Shown: positions 4,989 to 28,276 of the stretch, one piece after another | Position numbering within the stretch: the first letter of the stretch is position 1 | Layout of the letters: every line of letters begins with the position of its first letter | Source of the DNA: Cupriavidus necator N-1 | GTDB taxonomy: Bacteria; Pseudomonadota; Gammaproteobacteria; Burkholderiales; Burkholderiaceae | Direction: 5' to 3' | DNA: 64,000 nt | Assembly: GCF_000219215.1 (NCBI RefSeq) | Contig: NC_015726.1 | Location: forward strand, 1,736,001 to 1,800,000 | Position numbers and translations under genes: made by a program | The notes under the pieces: generated by a model | The model's input: only the letters and a program-made list of their open reading frames with translations | Told to the model about the DNA's origin: nothing | The model's database searches: none

Positions 4989-6520
<1,532 letters not shown>

Positions 6521-6584
6521 CAGAGCGTGCATCCCAAGTCGAGCGTTCACACTTATCGGTTTGTTTGTGGTTAAGGCCAGGTGG

Positions 6585-6621
6585 CCAAATGAAAGCGCTT
6601 CGCGAGAGCGTTTTCATTTGG
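6585..6621 (+). other. Stem-loop in the tRNA-less 16S-23S spacer
   Basis: The arms CCAAATGAAAGCGCT and AGCGTTTTCATTTGG pair over 15 positions with one G-U and close a 7-base loop. The hairpin sits where Burkholderiales spacers usually carry tRNA-Ile and tRNA-Ala. No cloverleaf, anticodon arm or T-loop (GGTTCGA) sequence is present anywhere in 6521-6845. Confidence 0.7.
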
Positions 6622-6647
6622 CATTGCCAAGCGATCTAACGATCGGC

Positions 6648-6658
6648 TGTTCTTTAAA
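6648..6658 (+). promoter_or_regulatory. Spacer boxA antitermination site
   Basis: TGTTCTTTAAA matches the boxA consensus and lies about 190 bp before the 23S gene, the usual place for the second boxA of an rRNA operon. Confidence 0.55.
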
Positions 6659-6845
6659 AATATGGGATGTAGTAAAGGTGTCGCGAAGCGTTGATGAGAC
6701 GCTGCAGTACAAAACGCGATACCGGGTTGTGATTGTATCAACCAAAATGTATTTAAGTGATCGAAAGATGACTTGGAATACGGCACAAATGCGAGAACTC
6801 ATCCTGTAGCGACTGTTTCGAGCAATCGAGACACACTCGTTATAG

Positions 6846-9726
<2,881 letters not shown>

Positions 9727-9850
9727 ATAACCAGTGTGTTTTGCCTGGTGTGTGATCGTGACTGTGCCGAAACAGTTGACACAAGACGCACAACCCCAAC
9801 TACATCCCTATTCGCAGCGTTGACCTCAACCTCAGCGTTGCAACCCCTTA

Positions 9851-9966
9851 TGCCTGGTGACCATAGCGAGCTGGAACCACCCCTTCCCATCCCGAACAGG
9901 TCCGTGAAACAGCTCCGCGCCGATGATAGTGCGGATACCCGTGTGAAAGTAGGTCATCGCCAGGCT
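9851..9966 (+). rRNA. rrf: 5S ribosomal RNA
   Basis: The terminal helix strands TGCCTGGTGA and CGCCAGGCT pair, and the internal TCCCATCCCGAACAGG is the conserved 5S loop B/C region. Length is about 116 nt. No tRNA follows it. Confidence 0.95.
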
Positions 9967-13790: not shown

Positions 13791-14174
13791 TTATGCCAGG
13801 GCGCCGTCGGTATAGACGTCGAACTTGCGCGCGGGATCGGCTGAAGGACCGTTGCGGTCCATGCCGGCCAGGGCACCGTCGGTGTAGATGTCGAATTTGC
13901 GGGCAGGATCGGCCGACACGCCACCGCGGTCCAGGCCAGAGACGGACAGCTCGTTGACGGCGGGAGCCTCAACGCGGGTACCGTCGATGAAGACGTCGAA
14001 GCGGCTGGCCCGCGCACCGTCGCTATAGACGTCGCGCATGTCGACGCGGAAGGTGTAGCCGGACTTGTCGCCGGCAGGAGCGCTGTCGCGGGCGGCGGCA
14101 TGCGCAATGCCGACCGTGCAGGCGGCTGCAATCGCGGCGGTGGCGAAGATCGTGTTAGCGAGCTGGCGGATCAT
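13791..14174 (-). CDS. Secreted repeat protein, motif D-[VI]-[YF]-x-D-G-[AT]-[RL]
   Basis: The 127-residue protein starts with a signal peptide (residues 1 to about 26, ending GIAHA). Four copies of a short unit follow: DVYSDGAR, DVFIDGTR, DIYTDGAL and DVYTDGAL. The last two sit in a larger duplication, S-A-D-P-A-R-K-F-D, spaced 27 residues apart. The protein ends DGALA, as its relative at 10950-11186 ends DGARA. GGAG eight bases before the ATG supports the start. It is monocistronic with its own terminator. No known domain is recognised. No OhrR-type operator was seen upstream. Confidence 0.72.
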   Translation of the reverse strand: MIRQLANTIFATAAIAAACTVGIAHAAARDSAPAGDKSGYTFRVDMRDVYSDGARASRFDVFIDGTRVEAPAVNELSVSGLDRGGVSADPARKFDIYTDGALAGMDRNGPSADPARKFDVYTDGALA

Positions 14175-14536
14175 GGCGGTACTCCGATTTGCGGTAAGAA
14201 GGGCAGAACGCTGCGGGCGTCCTCTCGCTTATACGCAGAAGCTGTGCCACCGGATGCGGACCGGCAAAAATGGAGCCGCAGGCCCGTCATCAGCGAAGTC
14301 CGCCCGGTTGGCGGAGCAAATGTTGGGCAGAAACAAACTAGCGGCGTATCAGCCGCCCGCCAAAACCAACAGCTTCAGCCGTCTGCCGCTTCCCGCGTCG
14401 GCATCCCCCGCCTCCGACTAGTCCCGACAGCATCAAGCTGGCCATGCCAATGTGGGCATTGCCCGCGCTGATGGACGGCGCCTACGCCATGTTCCCCCTG
14501 TAGAATCGGCCTCCACGCAACCCTGGAACGTCCCGC
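14175..14536. other. Intergenic region between divergent genes
   Basis: The 362 bp hold the promoters of the repeat protein (minus strand) and of the peptidase-helicase unit (plus strand). I see no gene, RNA or strong palindrome. A minus-strand TATAAG near 14231 may be the repeat-protein -10 box. Confidence 0.4.
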
Positions 14537-15742
14537 ATGGACTCTCACGCCCCGGATCGCGGCGCGCTGGTGCCGCTGGCCTATCACGCAACGGTGGTCG
14601 ACTACCTGCGCCGCCATGAGCCCGAGGTCTGGCGCTGGGCCGGCGCCCGCGCGACCGGCGCCGATCAACGCGAGGCACTGCGCTCGATGCTGCTGCGCGA
14701 CACCTACCGCATCGAGGCGGACGCGCATGCCGACGTGCACGCGGCGCTGGCCGAGGCGATGGCGCGGCTCGGCATCGGCGCGCCCGCGACGCTCTACCAG
14801 TCCCCGGGCCAGGACATGAACGCCTCGCTGGTCTACGTGCCCGGCGAGGTCCACATCGTCCTGCAGGGGCCGCTGCTGGACCGGCTGTCGCCGCCGGAGC
14901 TGCTGGCGGTGTTCGGCCATGAGCTGGCCCACTACCTGCTGTGGTCGCGCGACGACGGCCAGTTCCTGGTGGCCGACCGCATCCTGAACGACGCGCTGGC
15001 CGCGCCGGGCGCCAGCGCCAGCCATCGCGAGACCTGGCGCCGCTACGCGCTGCACACCGAACTGTTCGCCGACCGCGGCGGTGCCGTGGCCGCGGGCGCG
15101 GTAGCGCCGGCCGTGTCGACGCTGGTCAAGGTGCAGACCGGCATCGGCAGCGTGGACGCGGCCGCCTACCTGCGCCAGGCGGCCGAGATCGAATCCCACG
15201 AGGCGGGCGCAAGCGCCGCCCACAGCCATCCCGAGACCTTTATCCGGGCCCGTGCGCTGGCGCTGTGGTGGGAAGGCGCGGCCGATCTCGATCCATGGAT
15301 CGAAACCCGGCTGCACGGCCCGCTGGCTCTGGAGAAGCTGGACCTGCCGGGACAGGTCCGCCTGCGGGCGCTGACGCGCGGCTTCCTCGCCCACTTCCTC
15401 GCCGGCACGCCGCTGGCGAGCGAGGCAGTGCTCGCGCAAGTGCGCATGATGTTCCCCGACTGGCGCGACGACGAACCGGTGATCGGCCCAGACGGGTTGG
15501 GGCCGGACGTGGCCGACGACAGCGTGCGCGCCTACCTCAACACACTGATGATGGACCTGGCGCTCGCCGACCCCGACCAGCAGGACGCGGCGCTGCTGCG
15601 CGCCGGCCAGGTGGCGCAGGCGCTGGGCAGCCTGGAAGCGCTGCAAGGCAACCTGCGCCGCGACGCCGGCTTCGGCAAGCGCGAGCTGGACCGCTTCCAG
15701 CGCCAACTCCACCGCGAACTGGCCAGGGAGGGCCGGGCATGA
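14537..15742 (+). CDS. Soluble M48-type zinc metallopeptidase, partner of the helicase
   Basis: The 401-residue protein has the zincin motif H-E-L-A-H at residues 128-132 and a downstream acidic ligand candidate Glu175 in TELFADRGG, the arrangement of M48 peptidases. Unlike HtpX it has no transmembrane segments, so it should be cytosolic. The region after residue 180 is helical and of no family I know. Its stop overlaps the start of the giant helicase gene by four bases (ATGA), so the two products are likely made in a fixed ratio and act together. By analogy with other bacterial conflict systems, the peptidase could be an effector or a processing factor released when the helicase protein senses something; that is inference. 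Confidence 0.75.
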   Translation: MDSHAPDRGALVPLAYHATVVDYLRRHEPEVWRWAGARATGADQREALRSMLLRDTYRIEADAHADVHAALAEAMARLGIGAPATLYQSPGQDMNASLVYVPGEVHIVLQGPLLDRLSPPELLAVFGHELAHYLLWSRDDGQFLVADRILNDALAAPGASASHRETWRRYALHTELFADRGGAVAAGAVAPAVSTLVKVQTGIGSVDAAAYLRQAAEIESHEAGASAAHSHPETFIRARALALWWEGAADLDPWIETRLHGPLALEKLDLPGQVRLRALTRGFLAHFLAGTPLASEAVLAQVRMMFPDWRDDEPVIGPDGLGPDVADDSVRAYLNTLMMDLALADPDQQDAALLRAGQVAQALGSLEALQGNLRRDAGFGKRELDRFQRQLHRELAREGRA

Positions 15743-18700
15743 CTGACAGCAAGACTCACGGCACCAACACCGTTCCGGATATGACCGGCAGCAGCGAGCC
15801 GCGCACGCTGCGCGCCCTGGTCGACGCGCAGGCGGGCGCGGCGCTGCCCACCGACGACGTCCTGGTGCTGGTGCTGCCGCTGTTCGCGCAGGTCGCCGCG
15901 CTGCACGCGCATGGCAGGGTGGCCGCGCTCGACCCCGACAGCATCCTGGTGGACGAGGACGGCGGGCTGCGCCTGCGCCGGCCCGATGGCGAAGCGCCCG
16001 TCATGGACATCGGCGCGGTGCACCGCGTGCAGCCGCATCCGGCCTCGGGCCTGAACATCGTCGGCGCGCTGCAGCTCGGCCACGCCGATGACGGACAGCG
16101 CGACCAGGCCGACCTGGCGCTGCAGCTTGACGCTACGGCGCCGGTCGAACGCCCGGTCTATCTACGCGGTCCGGCCAGCTGGGAACGCCTGCTTGGCCAC
16201 CACGACGAGATCGGCGACGTGTTCCTGCTCGGCATGGTGCTCGCGAGCCTCGCCTGCGGCCTGGACTTTGCCGATGAGGACGACCTGCGCAGTTTCGTCG
16301 CGCAGCGCCGCAACCTGTTCCTGCTGCACGAGCGCCTGCATCCGATCGTCGCGGCGGTGATCGTCGAGATGACCGAGATCAACCGCCACGACCGCGCCAC
16401 CGATGTCGCCGCGCTGGCGACCCGGCTGCGCACGTGGCGCGAGCAGCCGCTGGGACTGGACGTTGAACGCGCACTGGCCGGCACGACCGGCGCCACGCCG
16501 CGCCGCGCCGCCGTGCTCACGCACCTGCGCGACCGCCTGTTCGATCTCTCGCGGCGCAACCGCCTGCTGCACTTCCGTCCGACCGCGGCCACCGTCAACG
16601 TCACCGTGGCCAGCGTGCCGCTGATGCTGCAGATCGAAAGCGTGCGGCCCGAGCATATCTGCACCTGGGGCGGACCGTTCGCGGCCGACCTGGTGGCGGG
16701 CAAGCCGGTGTCGTTGCAGCAATGGCTGCGCTTCGACGACCAGCCCTACCTGCCGGCGTCGCTCGACCGCCTGATCGCCGAGACCCGCCGCGACCGCGCC
16801 GAATACGGCTTCAGCAACCTGCGCCTGGTGGTGGCGTTCCTGCGCTGGCACAACCTGAAGGAGGCGCCGGACGAGCGCATCGTGACGCCGCTGCTGTGGC
16901 TGCCGGTGGAGCTGGTCAAACGCAAGGGCGTACGCGACCAGTACGTGATCCAGTGCGCGGGCGGCGAGGCCGAGTTCAACCCGGTGCTGCGCCACTACCT
17001 GCACCAGCTGTACGACATCCGGCTGGACGAGACCGTGGATCTCGACAAGACCTCGATCGAGGAGATCCATGCCGGCATCCTCGCGCAGATTCGCCGCTCC
17101 GAGCCCTCGGTCGAGTTGCGCCTGGTCGACAAGGCCGCGGTGCGGCTGGTGCGGCAGAAGGCGCTGCAGCGGATGCAGCAGTTCCAGCGCCGCAGGCCGG
17201 GCACGGCCGCCGTGCGCAGCGGCGGCTGGCTGCCGCCGTACAGCTATGCGCAGGACGACTACCGGCCGCTGGGGCGCGCGCTGTTCGAGCATTGGGTGCG
17301 GCCGAGCGAACTGCCGCAGCGCTTCGAAGCGGGCGCCGCGCCAGGCGCCGGCCCGCGGCAGCCGCACATGGGCGGCTCCGCCGCCGCGCAAAGCGAAGAG
17401 CGCCAGGGCTACGTGCTGGAGGAGTCCGAGGGCCACCGTTATGCCTGGGACCTGGACCTGACGCAGGTGACGCTCGCCAACTTCAACTACCGCAAGATGT
17501 CGCTGGTGCGCGACTACGCGCAGTTGCTGGACGAGCCCGGCGCCAATCCGGCGTTCGACCGCGTATTCTCGATCGATCCGCGCGACGTGGAGACCCAGGC
17601 GCCCGCACCGCTCGCACCGGCCGAGCAGTGGAACGTGGTGGCGGCCGACGCGACCCAGAACGCAGCGGTTGGCCTGGCGCGCAGCCAGCGCAGCTTTATC
17701 ATCCAGGGCCCGCCGGGCACGGGCAAGTCGCAGACCATCACCAACCTGATCGCCGACTACGCCGGCCGCGGCAAGCGCGTGCTGTTCGTCTGCGAAAAGC
17801 GCGCCGCGCTCGACGTGGTGTTCCATCGGCTCAAGCAAAGCGGGCTGGACTCGCTGTGCTGCCTGATCCACGACTCGCAGACCGACAAGAAGGCCTTCAT
17901 CGCCGACCTGCGCGCCTGCTATGAGCAGTGGATCGCGCAGCCGCATGACGGCGACGCGCTGGCTGCGCGCCGCGCGCAGGTGGCCGAGGCACTGGCCGCG
18001 CACCAGCAGCGTATCGACGCGTTCGAGGTCGCGATGGCAGCAGTGCCCGAGGCACTTGGCGACAGCGTGCGTGCACTGCTGCGCCGCGTGGCGGCGCTGC
18101 CGACGGTACCGGACGCGGGGCCTGCGCTGCGCGAGCGCCTGCCGGCGCTGGCCGCTTGGGACCGTCAGCGCGATCTCGCGCACCGCGTGCACCGCGCGAT
18201 GCGCGAGCGCTTCGGTCTCGACAGCCTTGCCGCGCATCCGTTCGCGCGCCTGTCCCCGCAACTGCTGTCCGACGAGCGCGCCTATGGCCGCGCCGAGCAG
18301 CTGTGCCATGACGCCGAGGCGCTGTTCGATGCGCTCGACCCGCTGCTGGACAGCACCGCAAGCCTGACCAGCCAGGACACCGCGCTGGAACAGGCACGCG
18401 CGATTGCCGCCGACAGCCAGTGGCTGCTCGACACGGGCCTGGCTGCACACCTGGACCTGCTCGATCTGGCCTCGCCGGCGCAAGGCGCGCTGCGCGAGGT
18501 TCGCGCGGACCTGGAGCGGCGCGCGCAGGCATTCGCCGATGCGCAGGCCGCAACCTCGAACTGGCAAGACAAGCTGAGCCCCGGCGATACCGAATCGGCG
18601 CTGGCGCTCGCGCGGCGGCTGGAGCCGTCGTTCGCGCGCTGGCTGCAGCCCGCATGGTGGCGACTGCGCGGCGAACTGAAGCGCCGCTATGACTTTGGCA

Positions 18701-21261
18701 AGCACGCCGTCCACCCGGGCTACGGCAAGGTGCTGGAAGTGCTGGCCGCCGAGCATGCCGCAAGCGCCGCGCTGGCAGCGGCCGATGCCGACAGCCGCCG
18801 CCGCTACGGCGTGAGCGAGATGCAGGCCTTCCTGCGCGCGCTCGGCGAACTCGAGCAGCGCCTGCAGTCGGGCGCAGGCCCGCGCGAGCTGGTCGCGCAT
18901 CTGCGCCAGGCCGTCGACCCGGTCGCCGCGGCGCGCGCCGAAGCCGGTGCGCGCGAGGCGCTGGAGAAGCTCGCGCAGCGTGTGCGCGGCGGGCTGGCGC
19001 TGGCCGCCGACGCGCGCCTCGGCGATATCGCCGAACTGCTGCGCGACCTGCGCGAGGCGCTCGATGACCTGCCAGACCTGTTGCCGCTGTTGCGCGCGGT
19101 GCACGCGGGTGACCCCGCTTGCGCCGCCACGCTGCAGTGGCTCGATCATGCACCGGCACAGCTCGAGGCGCTGGTGGCTGACGAGGCGCTGCGCCGTCTC
19201 GCGCGTGAGAACCCGGTGCTGGCGCGCTTTGGCGGCGCGGCGCTGGCGCAGGCTGCGCGCGCCGTGGCGCAAGGGCAGCGCGAACTGCTCGCGCTGAACG
19301 CGCAAGTGGTGCGCGCCACGCGGCACAAGCAGTTCGCCGAGAACGTACGCGTGTCCTCGTTGTCGGCCACGATGCTGGACGCCGACGGCAAGGCGTTCAA
19401 GAAACAATACGCCACGGGCCGCCGCGAACTGGAGCACGAGTTCGGCAAGAGCATGCGCCACCGTTCGATCCGCGATCTCTCCGACGACGAGACCGGCATC
19501 GTCATCAACGACCTGAAGCCGATCTGGCTGATGAGCCCGCTGTCGGTATCCGACACACTGCCGCTGTCGCCGGACCTGTTCGACGTGGTGATCTTCGACG
19601 AGGCCAGCCAGATCCCGACTGAAGAGGCCGTGCCTGCGCTGAGCCGCGCGCGCCAGGTGGTGGTGGTCGGCGACGAGATGCAGCTGCCGCCGACAAGCTT
19701 CTTCACGGCCGGCGGCGCCGAAGGCGATGACGAGATCGTGGTGGAAGAGGAGGGCGACCGCATCGCCATCAACCTCGATTCGGACAGCCTGCTGAACCAG
19801 GCCGCGCGCAACCTGCCTGCCACGCTGCTGGCGTGGCACTACCGCAGCCGTCATGAATCGCTGATCAGCTTTTCCAACGCGGCGTTTTACGACGGGCGCC
19901 TCGTCACCATTCCCGACCGTTTGCTGGAGCAGGCCGAGGACGAGGCGCCTGCGCTGCGCTCGGACCAGGAGGATGCCGGCATCGCGGGCGCCGACGCGCT
20001 GCTGGCGCGGCCGGTCAGCTTCCACCGGCTGGCAGACGGCGTCTACGCCGACCGCCGCAATGCGCCCGAGGCGGGCTACATCGCCCGGACCGTGCGCGAA
20101 CTGTTGCGCCGCGAGACCGGGCTGAGCCTGGGCATCGTGGCGTTTTCCGAGGCGCAGCAGGGCGCCATCGAGTCCGCGCTCGAGACGCTGGCCGCCGAGG
20201 ACGCGGACTTCGCGATGCGCCTCGAACGCGAGTACGTGCGCGAGGACGACGACCAGTTCAACGGGCTGTTCGTCAAGAACCTGGAGAATGTCCAGGGCGA
20301 CGAGCGCGACGTCATCATCCTGAGCATCTGCTACGCGCCCGGGCCGGACGGCAAGATGCTGATGAACTTCGGCCCGATCAACCAGCGCGGCGGCGAGAAG
20401 CGCCTGAACGTGATCTTCAGCCGCGCGCGCCATCGGATGGCGGTGGTGTCGACGATCCAGGCCGAGGCGATCACCAATGTGCACAACGACGGCGCGGCCG
20501 CACTGCGCGCGTTCCTGCAGTTCGCACAGGCCAGCGCGCGCGGCCAGTTCGAGCGCGCCCAGTCGGTGCTGGGCGCACTGAACCCCGGCGCGCGCGACGC
20601 CTTTACGCGCGAACCCACGCCGGACAGCATCCGCGACGCACTGGCCGAGGCGCTGCGTGCGCGCGGCCACCAGGTGCACGCCAACGTCGGCCGCTCGCAG
20701 TTCCGCTGCGACCTGGCCATCGCCGATCCGTCGGGTCAAGGCTACGCGCTGGCGATCCTGCTCGATACGCCGTCCGAGCCGGTGTCGGACACCGCCGAGC
20801 GCTATGTATTCCGCCCCGGCATCCTGCGCAGCTTCGGCTGGCGGGTGCTGGACATCCCCGGCAAGGACTGGCTCGACGATGCGGAAGCGGTGCTGGCCCG
20901 CATCGAGGCCATGCTGGCCGATGGCGAGGATCGCGCGCTGGACATGGAGGTCGAGATCCCGGTGCCGTTGGCGAACCCGGCCACGGTGCAGGCTGCGGCG
21001 TCAACGGGCGAGGCCCGGGCGGACGCGGCGACGGCATCGGCTGCGCAAGCCGAACTGGTGCGGACGCTGCGCTTCGAGCAGGGCACGTCGCGCAAGTTCT
21101 GGCGTGCCAGCGTGCGCGGGGCGGAGCTCTCCGTCACCTACGGCCGCATCGGCAGCACAGGGCAGACCAGCGTGAAGGCGTTCGACAGCGCCGAGCGGGC
21201 GCGACGCGAGGCGGACAAGCTGGTGGCAGAGAAACTGCGCAAGGGTTACGTGGAGGCATAG
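15739..21261 (+). CDS. Giant pseudokinase-DUF4011-SF1 helicase-nuclease-like-WGR protein
   Basis: The 1840-residue protein has five parts. Residues about 20-250 look like a protein-kinase C-lobe without catalytic motifs (LDPDSILVDEDG in place of HRD...N, no DFG). Residues about 255-560 are DUF4011 (LFDLSRRNRLLHF from 267). Residues about 630-1600 are a superfamily 1 helicase: Walker A GPPGTGKS 657-664, DEASQ 1287-1291, GDEMQLPPT 1311-1319, WHYRSRH 1366-1372, VQGDERD 1518-1524, EKRLNVIFSRAR 1553-1564, with a long helical insert between Walker A and B. Residues about 1630-1730 resemble the MTES_1575 endonuclease-like domain. Residues 1773-1840 are a WGR domain (YGRIG at 1801-1805). The start overlaps the peptidase stop. 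An upstream in-frame extension would run antiparallel to the peptidase frame and is rejected. Related DUF4011 helicases (Hhe) act in phage defence. Confidence 0.85.
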   Translation: MTDSKTHGTNTVPDMTGSSEPRTLRALVDAQAGAALPTDDVLVLVLPLFAQVAALHAHGRVAALDPDSILVDEDGGLRLRRPDGEAPVMDIGAVHRVQPHPASGLNIVGALQLGHADDGQRDQADLALQLDATAPVERPVYLRGPASWERLLGHHDEIGDVFLLGMVLASLACGLDFADEDDLRSFVAQRRNLFLLHERLHPIVAAVIVEMTEINRHDRATDVAALATRLRTWREQPLGLDVERALAGTTGATPRRAAVLTHLRDRLFDLSRRNRLLHFRPTAATVNVTVASVPLMLQIESVRPEHICTWGGPFAADLVAGKPVSLQQWLRFDDQPYLPASLDRLIAETRRDRAEYGFSNLRLVVAFLRWHNLKEAPDERIVTPLLWLPVELVKRKGVRDQYVIQCAGGEAEFNPVLRHYLHQLYDIRLDETVDLDKTSIEEIHAGILAQIRRSEPSVELRLVDKAAVRLVRQKALQRMQQFQRRRPGTAAVRSGGWLPPYSYAQDDYRPLGRALFEHWVRPSELPQRFEAGAAPGAGPRQPHMGGSAAAQSEERQGYVLEESEGHRYAWDLDLTQVTLANFNYRKMSLVRDYAQLLDEPGANPAFDRVFSIDPRDVETQAPAPLAPAEQWNVVAADATQNAAVGLARSQRSFIIQGPPGTGKSQTITNLIADYAGRGKRVLFVCEKRAALDVVFHRLKQSGLDSLCCLIHDSQTDKKAFIADLRACYEQWIAQPHDGDALAARRAQVAEALAAHQQRIDAFEVAMAAVPEALGDSVRALLRRVAALPTVPDAGPALRERLPALAAWDRQRDLAHRVHRAMRERFGLDSLAAHPFARLSPQLLSDERAYGRAEQLCHDAEALFDALDPLLDSTASLTSQDTALEQARAIAADSQWLLDTGLAAHLDLLDLASPAQGALREVRADLERRAQAFADAQAATSNWQDKLSPGDTESALALARRLEPSFARWLQPAWWRLRGELKRRYDFGKHAVHPGYGKVLEVLAAEHAASAALAAADADSRRRYGVSEMQAFLRALGELEQRLQSGAGPRELVAHLRQAVDPVAAARAEAGAREALEKLAQRVRGGLALAADARLGDIAELLRDLREALDDLPDLLPLLRAVHAGDPACAATLQWLDHAPAQLEALVADEALRRLARENPVLARFGGAALAQAARAVAQGQRELLALNAQVVRATRHKQFAENVRVSSLSATMLDADGKAFKKQYATGRRELEHEFGKSMRHRSIRDLSDDETGIVINDLKPIWLMSPLSVSDTLPLSPDLFDVVIFDEASQIPTEEAVPALSRARQVVVVGDEMQLPPTSFFTAGGAEGDDEIVVEEEGDRIAINLDSDSLLNQAARNLPATLLAWHYRSRHESLISFSNAAFYDGRLVTIPDRLLEQAEDEAPALRSDQEDAGIAGADALLARPVSFHRLADGVYADRRNAPEAGYIARTVRELLRRETGLSLGIVAFSEAQQGAIESALETLAAEDADFAMRLEREYVREDDDQFNGLFVKNLENVQGDERDVIILSICYAPGPDGKMLMNFGPINQRGGEKRLNVIFSRARHRMAVVSTIQAEAITNVHNDGAAALRAFLQFAQASARGQFERAQSVLGALNPGARDAFTREPTPDSIRDALAEALRARGHQVHANVGRSQFRCDLAIADPSGQGYALAILLDTPSEPVSDTAERYVFRPGILRSFGWRVLDIPGKDWLDDAEAVLARIEAMLADGEDRALDMEVEIPVPLANPATVQAAASTGEARADAATASAAQAELVRTLRFEQGTSRKFWRASVRGAELSVTYGRIGSTGQTSVKAFDSAERARREADKLVAEKLRKGYVEA

Positions 21262-21285
21262 CGCCTGGACAGGGTGCCGACGCGA

Positions 21286-24862: not shown

Positions 24863-27800
24863 ATGCGCTGCACAAAATGCGGGTTCGAGAACCCAGCGGG
24901 AGGAAAATTCTGCGAGGAGTGCGGGCAAAGGCTTGCGCAGATTTGCCCGCAATGCGGCCATGAGTCCAGCCCGACGGCGAAGTTCTGTGGTGCTTGCGGC
25001 GTGCCCCTGACGGAACTGCCGGCAACGCCAGTTCCTGCCGCAGAGGCAATGCCCGCCGTCCTCGCACCGGTTCTTTACACGCCGCCCCATCTCGCTGAAC
25101 GCATTCTCGCCGAGCAGGCGGCGATGGAGGCCAGGGGACAGGCCGCCGGCGAACGCAAGACCATTACGGCACTGTTTGCGGACATGGCCGGCTCGACCGC
25201 TCTGATCCAGGACCTGGACCCCGAAGAAGCGCGCGGGCTGATCGACCCCGTGATAGCGCTGATGATGGAGGCCGTGCATCACTACGAGGGATACGTTGCC
25301 AAATCCTTGGGCGACGGCATCCTGGCGCTATTTGGCGCGCCGATTGCGCACGAGGACCATCCCCTGCGGGCGTTGTACGCAGCGCTGCGCATGCAGGAAG
25401 CGATGCGCCGCCATGGCGACCGGGTCCGTCTGGAGCAGGGTGTCCCGCTGCAGATCCGGGTCGGCATCCATACCGGCGAGGTGGTCGTACGCTCGATCCG
25501 CAAGGACGACTTGCGCGCGGACTACGACCCGGTCGGGCACACGATCCATATCGCCTCCCGGATGGAAGGCGTCGCGACACCGTCGTCGATTCTCGTCAGC
25601 GAATCGACCCATAAGCTGACCGAGGGATACTTCGAGTTCAAGAGCCTAGGGACCACGCACGTAAAGGGTATTCGGGAGCCGCTTGCGGTCTACGAGGTGC
25701 TCGGCCTCGGCGCATTGCGCACGCGCATGCAAGTGGCGGCGCATCGCGGTCTGGCGCGGTTTGTCGGCCGCCAGGCCGAATTGGAGCGCTTGCAAGTGGC
25801 GTTGGAGTCGGCCAAGGCGGGGCAAGGGCAGATCGTCGGAGTAGCGGGCGAGGCGGGTGTCGGCAAGTCGCGGCTGTACCACGAATTCAAGGCACGTTCG
25901 CAGCGGGGCTGCATGGTGCTCGAAACCTTCTCGGTTTCGCATGGCAAGGCCTTTCCCTATCTGCCTTTGATCGATCTCTTAAGAAACTACTTTCAGATCA
26001 CCGCGCAGGACGACGAACGGTTGTACCGCGAGAAAGTCACCGGCAGGTTGCTGACCCTGGATCGCACACTGGAGGACCATTTGCCCTACCTGCTTTACCT
26101 GCTCGGTATCAGAGAGGCGGGCTCGGCGCTGCCCAGGATGGACGCCACCATCCGGCGCCAGCGCACATTCGAAGCCATTGCACGGCTACTGGTGCGTGAG
26201 AGCCGGAATCAGACGCTGATGGTCTTGTTTGAAGACTTGCAATGGCTGGACAGCGAGACCCAGGCCTTTCTCAATATCCTCATCGAGCATGTGCCAGATA
26301 CCAGGTTGCTTCTGCTCGTCAACTACCGCCCGGAATACGCGCATAACTGGGACCGGAAGCCTTACTTCACCCAATTGCAGCTGGAACCCCTGGAGCAAGG
26401 GGAAGCACAGGGCCTGCTCACGGCCCTGCTGGGAGACCATCCCTCGCTCGTGCCCCTGAAACTGCTTATCCAGGCGAAGACCGAGGGTAACCCGTTCTTT
26501 ATGGAGGAAGTCGTGAAGACACTGGCCGAGGAGAGCGTCTTGCTTGACCAGCCCGGCAGCTACCGGATTGAGAAGGCCCCTTTGTCACTTCATATTCCGC
26601 CGACCGTGCAAGGGGTGCTCGCCGCCCGTATCGACCGGCTTCCGGTCGCCCAGAAGGACTTGCTGCAGACCCTCGCGATCATCGGCAAAGAGTTTCCCTT
26701 AAGTCTAATCGAACATGTCACCGCGCAACCGGAAGAGCAACTGCGCCCGCTTCTGAGCGACCTCCAGGCCGGCGATTTCATTTACGAGCGTCCCGCATTC
26801 CCCGAAGTGGAGTACGCGTTCAAACACGCGCTTACCCAGGAGGTAGTCGCGAATTCGCTGTTGACTGACCGGCGCAGTGTGCTGCATGAACGCACGGCCC
26901 GGGCCATTGAGATACTGTTTCCAGGCCGGCTGAAGGACTACTGTAGCGAGTTGGCTCACCATTACAGTAAGAGCGGCAATACCCGGAAGGCGATCGAATA
27001 TCTGGAGCTGGCGGGTCAGCAGGCCTTGCAGCAGTCAGCTCATCTCGAAGCGGTGCCTCATCTCAGCGCTGCTCTCGAGTTCCTCAAGTCGTTGCCTGAC
27101 ACTCCCGAACGTGCACGCCAGGAACTCAGCCTGCTGCTGGGTCTTGGCATTGCCTGCATCACTGCTCGAGGTCATGGAGCGCCGGAGGTGCAGACGATCT
27201 ACACGCGTGCGTTAGCCCTGTGCGAACAGGGCGGGGAAACTCCACAGTTGTTCTCTGCGCAGTTGGGGATGTGGTCTTTTTATCTGTTGCGGGGACAACT
27301 CGAAACGGCGCAGGCTTTGGCAGAGCGCCTACACGGTCTCGCGCAGGACACACAGGAGCCGGAACAGCTCGCGGAGGCGCACCGCGTTCTGGGGGTGACG
27401 CTGTTCCGCCGGGGGAAGCTAAGCCTGGCCCGTACCCACATGGAAGAGGCGCTGACCCTGCACCGGCCCGATCGGCAGTCATACAGTCATCTTCTGCGTT
27501 ATGCGCGAAACCCGGCCGTTCACATGCGGAGCACCTTGAGCTGGATTCTTTGGTATCTGGGCCTGCCGGACCAGGCCTGCACCCGAAGTGAAGAGGCGAT
27601 AGAGTTGGCCAGAAAGGCCTCTGATCCGTTCGGCCTGGCGCTGAGCCTGATATTCGCGGCTGAATTGCATCAGCGCCGGTGCGACGAGCAGCGAGCACTG
27701 GAGTGTGCCAACGCAGCGATCGCACTGTCGAATGACCATGGGTTCCAGCTCTATCTGGCGTGGGGAACGATCCTTCGCGGCTGGGCGCTCGCCGGGCAGG

Positions 27801-28276
27801 GTTCTCATGAGGACGGCATCGCTCTGATGCAGCAAGGCTTCAGCGCCCTTGATTCTACCGGAGCGATACTCGGGCAGCCCTCACTTCTGGGACTGCTAGC
27901 CGATGCTTATGGAAGAGCCGGACAATGCGACGCGGCACTTCGCGTCACGAGAGACGCGCTGACACTGGCACGTGGCACAGGCGAACGGTTTGATGAACCG
28001 ACACTGATTCGGCTTAAGGGAGAACTGCTGCTGCAGATGACGGCCGAAGACAATGAAGCGGAAGCGTGTTTTCTGAAAGCGATTGCGCTAGCCCGGGACG
28101 AAGGGGCCAGGTCAATCGAATTGCGGTGCGCGCTGAGCCTGGCCCGGCTTTGGCATAGCCAGGGCAAAAACCTTGCGGCGCGGCAGATCCTCGCCGAGAT
28201 ACAAGGCCTCTTCAAGGAGGGCTTTGATACCGTGGATTGGCGTCAGGCAAAAGAGCTGCAAGAGCATTTGTCCTGA
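24863..28276 (+). CDS. Zinc-ribbon/class III cyclase/AAA ATPase/TPR signalling protein
   Basis: The 1137-residue protein starts with two zinc ribbons (Cys 3, 6, 17, 20 and Cys 28, 31, 42, 45). A class III nucleotide cyclase domain follows (about 97-280) with metal-binding Asp107 (FADMAGST) and Asp151 (SLGDGILALFG). An AAA_16/STAND-type ATPase is next (about 295-700, Walker A GEAGVGKS 329-336, LFEDLQWLD), then TPR-like helical repeats to the end. In the cyclase the usual transition-state asparagine is His229, while the arginine (Arg233) is kept. Such proteins probably couple ligand sensing in the TPR part to cyclase or ATPase output. AGAGGG lies just before the start. It is followed by the convergent tartrate dehydrogenase gene. 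Confidence 0.88.
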   Translation: MRCTKCGFENPAGGKFCEECGQRLAQICPQCGHESSPTAKFCGACGVPLTELPATPVPAAEAMPAVLAPVLYTPPHLAERILAEQAAMEARGQAAGERKTITALFADMAGSTALIQDLDPEEARGLIDPVIALMMEAVHHYEGYVAKSLGDGILALFGAPIAHEDHPLRALYAALRMQEAMRRHGDRVRLEQGVPLQIRVGIHTGEVVVRSIRKDDLRADYDPVGHTIHIASRMEGVATPSSILVSESTHKLTEGYFEFKSLGTTHVKGIREPLAVYEVLGLGALRTRMQVAAHRGLARFVGRQAELERLQVALESAKAGQGQIVGVAGEAGVGKSRLYHEFKARSQRGCMVLETFSVSHGKAFPYLPLIDLLRNYFQITAQDDERLYREKVTGRLLTLDRTLEDHLPYLLYLLGIREAGSALPRMDATIRRQRTFEAIARLLVRESRNQTLMVLFEDLQWLDSETQAFLNILIEHVPDTRLLLLVNYRPEYAHNWDRKPYFTQLQLEPLEQGEAQGLLTALLGDHPSLVPLKLLIQAKTEGNPFFMEEVVKTLAEESVLLDQPGSYRIEKAPLSLHIPPTVQGVLAARIDRLPVAQKDLLQTLAIIGKEFPLSLIEHVTAQPEEQLRPLLSDLQAGDFIYERPAFPEVEYAFKHALTQEVVANSLLTDRRSVLHERTARAIEILFPGRLKDYCSELAHHYSKSGNTRKAIEYLELAGQQALQQSAHLEAVPHLSAALEFLKSLPDTPERARQELSLLLGLGIACITARGHGAPEVQTIYTRALALCEQGGETPQLFSAQLGMWSFYLLRGQLETAQALAERLHGLAQDTQEPEQLAEAHRVLGVTLFRRGKLSLARTHMEEALTLHRPDRQSYSHLLRYARNPAVHMRSTLSWILWYLGLPDQACTRSEEAIELARKASDPFGLALSLIFAAELHQRRCDEQRALECANAAIALSNDHGFQLYLAWGTILRGWALAGQGSHEDGIALMQQGFSALDSTGAILGQPSLLGLLADAYGRAGQCDAALRVTRDALTLARGTGERFDEPTLIRLKGELLLQMTAEDNEAEACFLKAIALARDEGARSIELRCALSLARLWHSQGKNLAARQILAEIQGLFKEGFDTVDWRQAKELQEHLS

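Follow-up and report, generated by a model that had tools for sequence, protein, structure and literature searches.

We analysed a stretch of 64,000 nucleotides (the window) of the Cupriavidus necator N-1 genome. It carries two overlapping genes, the first of which (14537..15742, +) encodes a 401-residue M48 zinc peptidase whose C-terminal half is TerB-like. The stop codon of this gene overlaps, in an ATGA at 15739..15742 (+), the start of a gene for an SF1 helicase protein of 1840 residues (15739..21261, +). The initial annotation had described just such a two-gene arrangement, an M48-type peptidase with HELAH joined by ATGA to an 1840-residue DUF4011/SF1/WGR protein, and this observation was confirmed. 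The window belongs to a contig of 3.87 Mb and also holds, about 4.6 kb before the pair, a complete rRNA operon (16S, 23S and 5S by Rfam; 4989-9965, +).

The peptidase matched the Pfam M48 profile (PF01435) with 39 bits, against a gathering cut-off of 20.3, and all 44 of its aligned relatives matched it at E <= 0.01. The zinc motif HELAH (H128, E129 and H132; 14918..14932, +) is kept as HExxH in all 69 pair peptidases with letters at that position. The presumed third zinc ligand, E175 of E175xxxD179 (15059..15061, +), is invariant in the 44-row peptidase alignment A1 and present in 69 of 70 aligned peptidases. The AF2 model had a pLDDT of 93.5, and its structural matches place the predicted structure in the M48 fold, the solved structures matched being presumably M48 members. 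The protein has no clear membrane segment, its best 19-residue hydropathy being 1.44. The C-terminal half (about residues 268-384; 15338..15688, +; start placed by eye) was recognised by profile-profile alignment: hhalign of profile A1 against profile A3, built from the fused proteins described below, gave a probability of 99.8 and an E of 2e-27 over 331 columns reaching the TerB region. As none of the 44 stand-alone peptidases matched Pfam TerB, this comparison is the basis for the label TerB-like.

The helicase protein begins with a kinase C-lobe remnant (residues 21-235; 15799..16443, +); a fold search with the N-terminus returned a list filled by kinase matches and so gave no information on residues 255-640. 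DUF4011 follows (residues 266-421; 16534..17001, +; PF13195, 54.6 bits), then the Walker A motif GPPGTGKS (residues 657-664; 17707..17730, +), the Walker B motif VIFDEASQ (residues 1284-1291; 19588..19611, +), with DEASQ in all 66 pair-type helicases, and the second helicase domain, AAA_12 (residues 1350-1571; 19786..20451, +; PF13087, 55.6 bits). PF13195, PF13086 and PF13087 all scored above gathering, which places the protein in the DUF4011 SF1 helicase superfamily. The C-terminal region holds a degenerate MTES_1575 nuclease domain (residues 1634-1725; 20638..20913, +; PF18741, 52.4 bits) and a WGR domain (residues 1780-1839; 21076..21255, +; PF05406, 60.6 bits), the latter optional across the family. 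The linker before WGR is the fastest-evolving part of the protein. The opposite strand of the helicase gene holds an open frame of 1525 residues (16162-20739, -), which is taken as a by-product of high GC codon usage.

The peptidase and helicase genes are both genuine, and together they make up a unit. A helicase scan of GTDB genomes gave 69 loci, 68 with a peptidase match upstream on the same strand and 67 with the match immediately upstream (L093 among these, its two genes about 0.15 kb apart); in L092 the peptidase lies about 0.8 kb from the helicase. The sole locus with no upstream peptidase, L082, is on a contig that starts 168 bases before the helicase. The initial annotation had proposed asking whether the peptidase is always adjacent, and homologues lacking it proved not to be the majority. 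Its view of the genes as a unit is borne out by this linkage, by fused counterparts and by a correlation of 0.978 between peptidase and helicase divergence (59 loci). That correlation leaves out 12 pairs with broken or cut genes from a set of 71, made up of the scan loci with a peptidase, two additional genomes and the window. In 66 of the 71 pairs the helicase has a possible start codon that overlaps the peptidase gene, and in 45 such a start gives an overlap of -4. Among 398 genomes from the phylum to which the window belongs, 47 had a helicase match and three, the window genome included, a near-full-length one; the strong peptidase matches fell in the same three genomes. In three loci (L071, L075 and L098) the pair has broken reading frames, from decay or sequencing error, and in Herbaspirillum sp. 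RV1423 a second, partial peptidase frame of 171 residues (L061:217-729) lies upstream of an intact pair.

Compared with seven Cupriavidus-type loci that have other flanks (L032, L033, L034, L036, L039, L050 and L075), the window shows DNA homology only from 14494-14497 to 21256-21274. The 5' edge (14494..14536, +) precedes the peptidase gene and contains a -10-like TAGAAT at 14501-14506 (+). Locus L031 agrees with the seven at the 3' end of homology, and L038 shares the window flanks. For the two genes dN/dS was 0.10-0.24, well below 1, which shows that both are in use.

The initial annotation had also noted a nuclease-like part in the helicase protein. The MTES_1575 domain is indeed present, but its ExD glutamate is lost, the strongest clue of the analysis and one that had been overlooked; in the window the position is occupied by L1674 (20758-20760, +). 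DUF4011 helicases without an M48 partner carry the canonical nuclease motif [IV]-E-C-D-G. By sequence alignment, all 28 M48-less rows (26 genes, as L115 and L116 duplicate L007 and L016) have E at the ExD glutamate position, against none of 65 pair members and none of 110 fused proteins with a letter there. The first nuclease glutamate behaves similarly (28/28 M48-less rows, 0/65 pair members with letters there, 4/111 fused proteins). These counts leave out six of 72 helicases shorter than 1500 residues and nine of 120 fused proteins shorter than 1700. The Walker A motif is intact in every pair-type (66/66) and fused (111/111) row. Most of the 28 nuclease-type rows are C-terminal pieces, and their Walker A was scored only in a control of 20 M48-less nuclease-type loci of 19 kb, 13 of them already counted in those 26 genes; all 20 carry Walker A as well as an intact [IV]ECDG motif, and neither the peptidase nor its profile found a match in these 20 loci.

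A nuclease domain still active through a rearranged site, with the peptidase merely maturing or regulating the helicase, would read these data differently. D1658 and D1676 both persist in 63 of the 65 pair members, and dN/dS of the domain was 0.11-0.29 in three of four comparisons. In the fourth and closest comparison (L038) it was 0.70 on few changes, a value that would fit a decaying part too. Set against such a site are the two glutamates, absent throughout the pair lineage, and the fused lineage, where the beta-2 aspartate is mostly gone as well (D in 15 of 109). We regard an active rearranged nuclease as very improbable.

The fused form gives a second view of the same module. In genome G186, whose protein is listed under Gilvimarinus agarilyticus, a single frame of 2073 residues contains M48, TerB, DUF4011 and helicase parts, each above its Pfam cut-off, and an MTES_1575 match of 31.9 bits, below the cut-off of 38.2. 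With the first 500 residues of this protein as query, at least 181 proteins matched the M48-TerB part. Gamma- and Betaproteobacteria and Myxococcota were among the names of the 120 fused-type matches listed, and HExxH was present in 119 of these 120. Within G186's own order the form was found in one of 293 genomes. No counterpart of the kinase part of the pair helicase's N-terminus was found in the fused proteins. A second lineage thus carries the same M48-TerB module and the same helicase as one predicted polypeptide; these fusions had been missed by the initial annotation. The G186 fusion adjoins an AAA_15 ATPase with an OLD-like TOPRIM domain (L112:1504-3549, -), of a kind found in defence systems. 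In a 2239-residue Nannocystis protein (P0097) a DEDDh exonuclease, which itself matches PADLOC PDC-S48, precedes the M48-TerB-helicase chain.

In unrooted trees, with no outgroup and with one of the 28 nuclease-type rows left out, the pair, fused and nuclease-type proteins each formed one clan. The nuclease site is lost wherever an intact M48 domain is present, in two architectures, and from this we infer proteolysis as the output. The pattern suggests that in the M48-bearing branch of the DUF4011 family proteolysis took the place of DNA cleavage.

It seems probable, with some margin for doubt, that the two proteins work as a helicase-gated peptidase, with proteolysis in place of DNA cleavage. 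The Upf1/SMUBP2-like SF1 helicase of the DUF4011 family would recognise or unwind aberrant nucleic acid as the trigger. The degenerate nuclease domain, and WGR where present, would serve as non-catalytic binding parts, and the kinase C-lobe remnant and DUF4011 may form a scaffold that provides a docking place for the soluble M48-TerB peptidase. Movement driven by ATP would then activate the peptidase or feed substrate to it, with proteolysis, not DNA cleavage, as the presumed output. The initial annotation had cast the peptidase as effector or activator of a sensing helicase in a candidate defence system. The peptidase as the likely active output survives from that claim; the loci gave no defence-island signal, as described below.

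What such a peptidase would be for is less clear-cut. The main rival to a defence role is repair of DNA-protein crosslinks or stalled complexes, in the manner of Wss1/SPRTN, which are proteases of the DNA-protein crosslink repair type. Here the helicase would find proteins stuck on DNA, WGR would bind nicked or branched DNA and the peptidase would digest the stuck proteins. The SprT-like Pfam profile does match 20 of the 44 peptidases at E <= 0.01, but it gives the window copy 16.9 bits, below its cut-off of 25.6, while M48 exceeds its own. WGR is present in 48 of 65 pair-type helicases, which fits DNA repair, yet this also makes it dispensable. No plasmid or phage copy of the peptidase was found and the neighbouring genes look ordinary, as a repair function would have it; on the other hand, the peptidase is patchy, being present in 13 of 60 Cupriavidus genomes. 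A LexA box within one mismatch occurred in one of 61 upstream regions, against about 5.6 in base-shuffled sequence, and its absence by this background argues against simple SOS control. Taken together, we consider crosslink repair unlikely.

Regulated proteolysis is a further candidate: the peptidase would cleave a chromosomal regulator once the helicase sensed RNA or DNA stress. The cleavage of DdrO by IrrE is a precedent for stress-regulated proteolysis, and the strong purifying selection on both genes is compatible with such a role. No regulator gene recurs beside the pair, however, nor did any other gene family recur there across groups (70 loci, window included), close relatives sharing flanks. 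We hold a regulatory role to be less likely still than repair.

For the helicase-gated peptidase, we think the most likely role is defence against invading DNA, through death or arrest of the infected cell or through cleavage of the invader's proteins, and within that reading we give it about an even chance. The genomic setting does not add to it. With the peptidase as query, tblastn gave no hit among 72,556 plasmid and 50,697 phage records, and a single weak match, of 47 residues, came from IMG/VR. The helicase matched 411 plasmids, none over 80% of its length, and the fused protein 344 plasmid records, none over 80% of the query; the 10 of these 344 that were listed matched the helicase part only.

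The neighbourhood is similarly plain. PADLOC models matched about four of 195 immediate neighbours of the pair in 51 loci (strict upper bound 11), these neighbours being proteins of 100-1299 residues from simple gene calls, two per side, with longer genes skipped. The figure of four counts the six PtuA models as a single protein, does the same for the three RtcR models, and adds TnsB and SWIM_XIII. For the nuclease-type M48-less loci the corresponding figure was about six of 80 (at most 11); the difference, on these estimated counts, has a Fisher p of 0.068. The 195 neighbours thus showed no enrichment of defence genes, and the defence-island setting for which the initial annotation had proposed to look was not supported. 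A Pfam scan of 98 neighbours found the 25 commonest of 84 families to be ordinary, and two members matched a DDE transposase. The lack of plasmid and phage matches and of a defence-gene neighbourhood is some evidence against a typical mobile defence system.

Two signs of recent acquisition were also considered. The GC content steps at the edges of the pair (0.71 against 0.63), but in 40 loci the GC of the pair tracks that of the host, exceeding it in 31 and differing by 0.027 on average, and the step was therefore dropped as evidence of recent transfer. A search for an empty insertion site with the right-hand flank in five Cupriavidus genomes found only rearranged or partial flanks and thus gave no support for insertion of the pair as a unit.

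Phage defence is nonetheless made plausible by kinship with PDC-S37, ProA and Hhe. The best PADLOC match of the helicase was the phage-defence candidate PDC-S37 (E 1.4e-208), a single-protein model of 1550 positions whose best stretch, 215-1356, spans the helicase and nuclease region; the M48 gene and the WGR part both lie outside the match. Among NCBIfam models the best match was the anti-phage protein ProA (NF058533), with 699.6 bits, short of the equivalog cut-off of 1500. Model positions 456-556 and 577-1740 were matched and the first 455 were not, and the best stretches of the fused proteins begin no earlier than position 575. Hhe (NF042953), a helicase plus nuclease that was also among the PADLOC matches, has DUF4011 and the SF1 helicase in common with the pair, but at 470.5 bits the window protein is well below the equivalog cut-off of 2000, and it lacks the nuclease motif that M48-less relatives keep. 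Mokosh (MkoA/MkoB) consists of an SF1 helicase that bears a kinase and of an effector, a PLD nuclease, which may be separate or fused. The MkoA helicase region matched the window helicase in PADLOC (E 4.6e-33), but the window protein has no more of a kinase than the C-lobe remnant, and a Pfam scan of the window peptidase and helicase found no PLD family.

Two published loci contain parts of the same kinds. An M48-family peptidase gene lies inside a tested phage-defence island of EPEC, RRDM; it adjoins a type I R-M system and DarTG, not a DUF4011 helicase (PMC12255303). In Pseudomonas aeruginosa a core DUF4011 gene lies beside a defence hotspot, according to PMC10250203. We found no description of the peptidase-helicase pair, nor any paper on ProA, in the open-licence literature, a body that misses most subscription papers.

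A broader reading, which we hold tentatively and at somewhat less than even chance, is that an immune helicase family swapped its weapon. It would have captured an M48-TerB peptidase while its built-in nuclease decayed, giving a nucleic-acid-triggered protease system with a two-gene form, built on a kinase C-lobe scaffold, and a single-chain form. Sensing by the helicase would in that case lead directly to proteolysis. Helicases with DUF4011 are commonly taken to be helicase-nucleases. With at least 566 matches to the peptidase profile, some of which may be other M48 proteins, and the 181 or more fused M48-TerB matches, each from a search that scored 8000 candidates, a sizeable branch appears to have replaced DNA cleavage by proteolysis. 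If the swap is real, nature would have provided a clean example of a nucleic-acid sensor that was retained while its effector was exchanged, and nuclease-based annotations would be misleading for the M48-bearing branch. The pair is a two-gene system, available in laboratory species that are harmless, in which to ask how a helicase can switch a protease.

Two further predicted genes of the window lie outside the pair. Upstream, a small predicted protein (13791-14174, -) has, by eye, a signal-like start and imperfect internal repeats. Downstream, a protein of 1137 residues (24863-28276, +) appears by eye to be a regulator with zinc-ribbon, nucleotide cyclase, ATPase and repeat parts.
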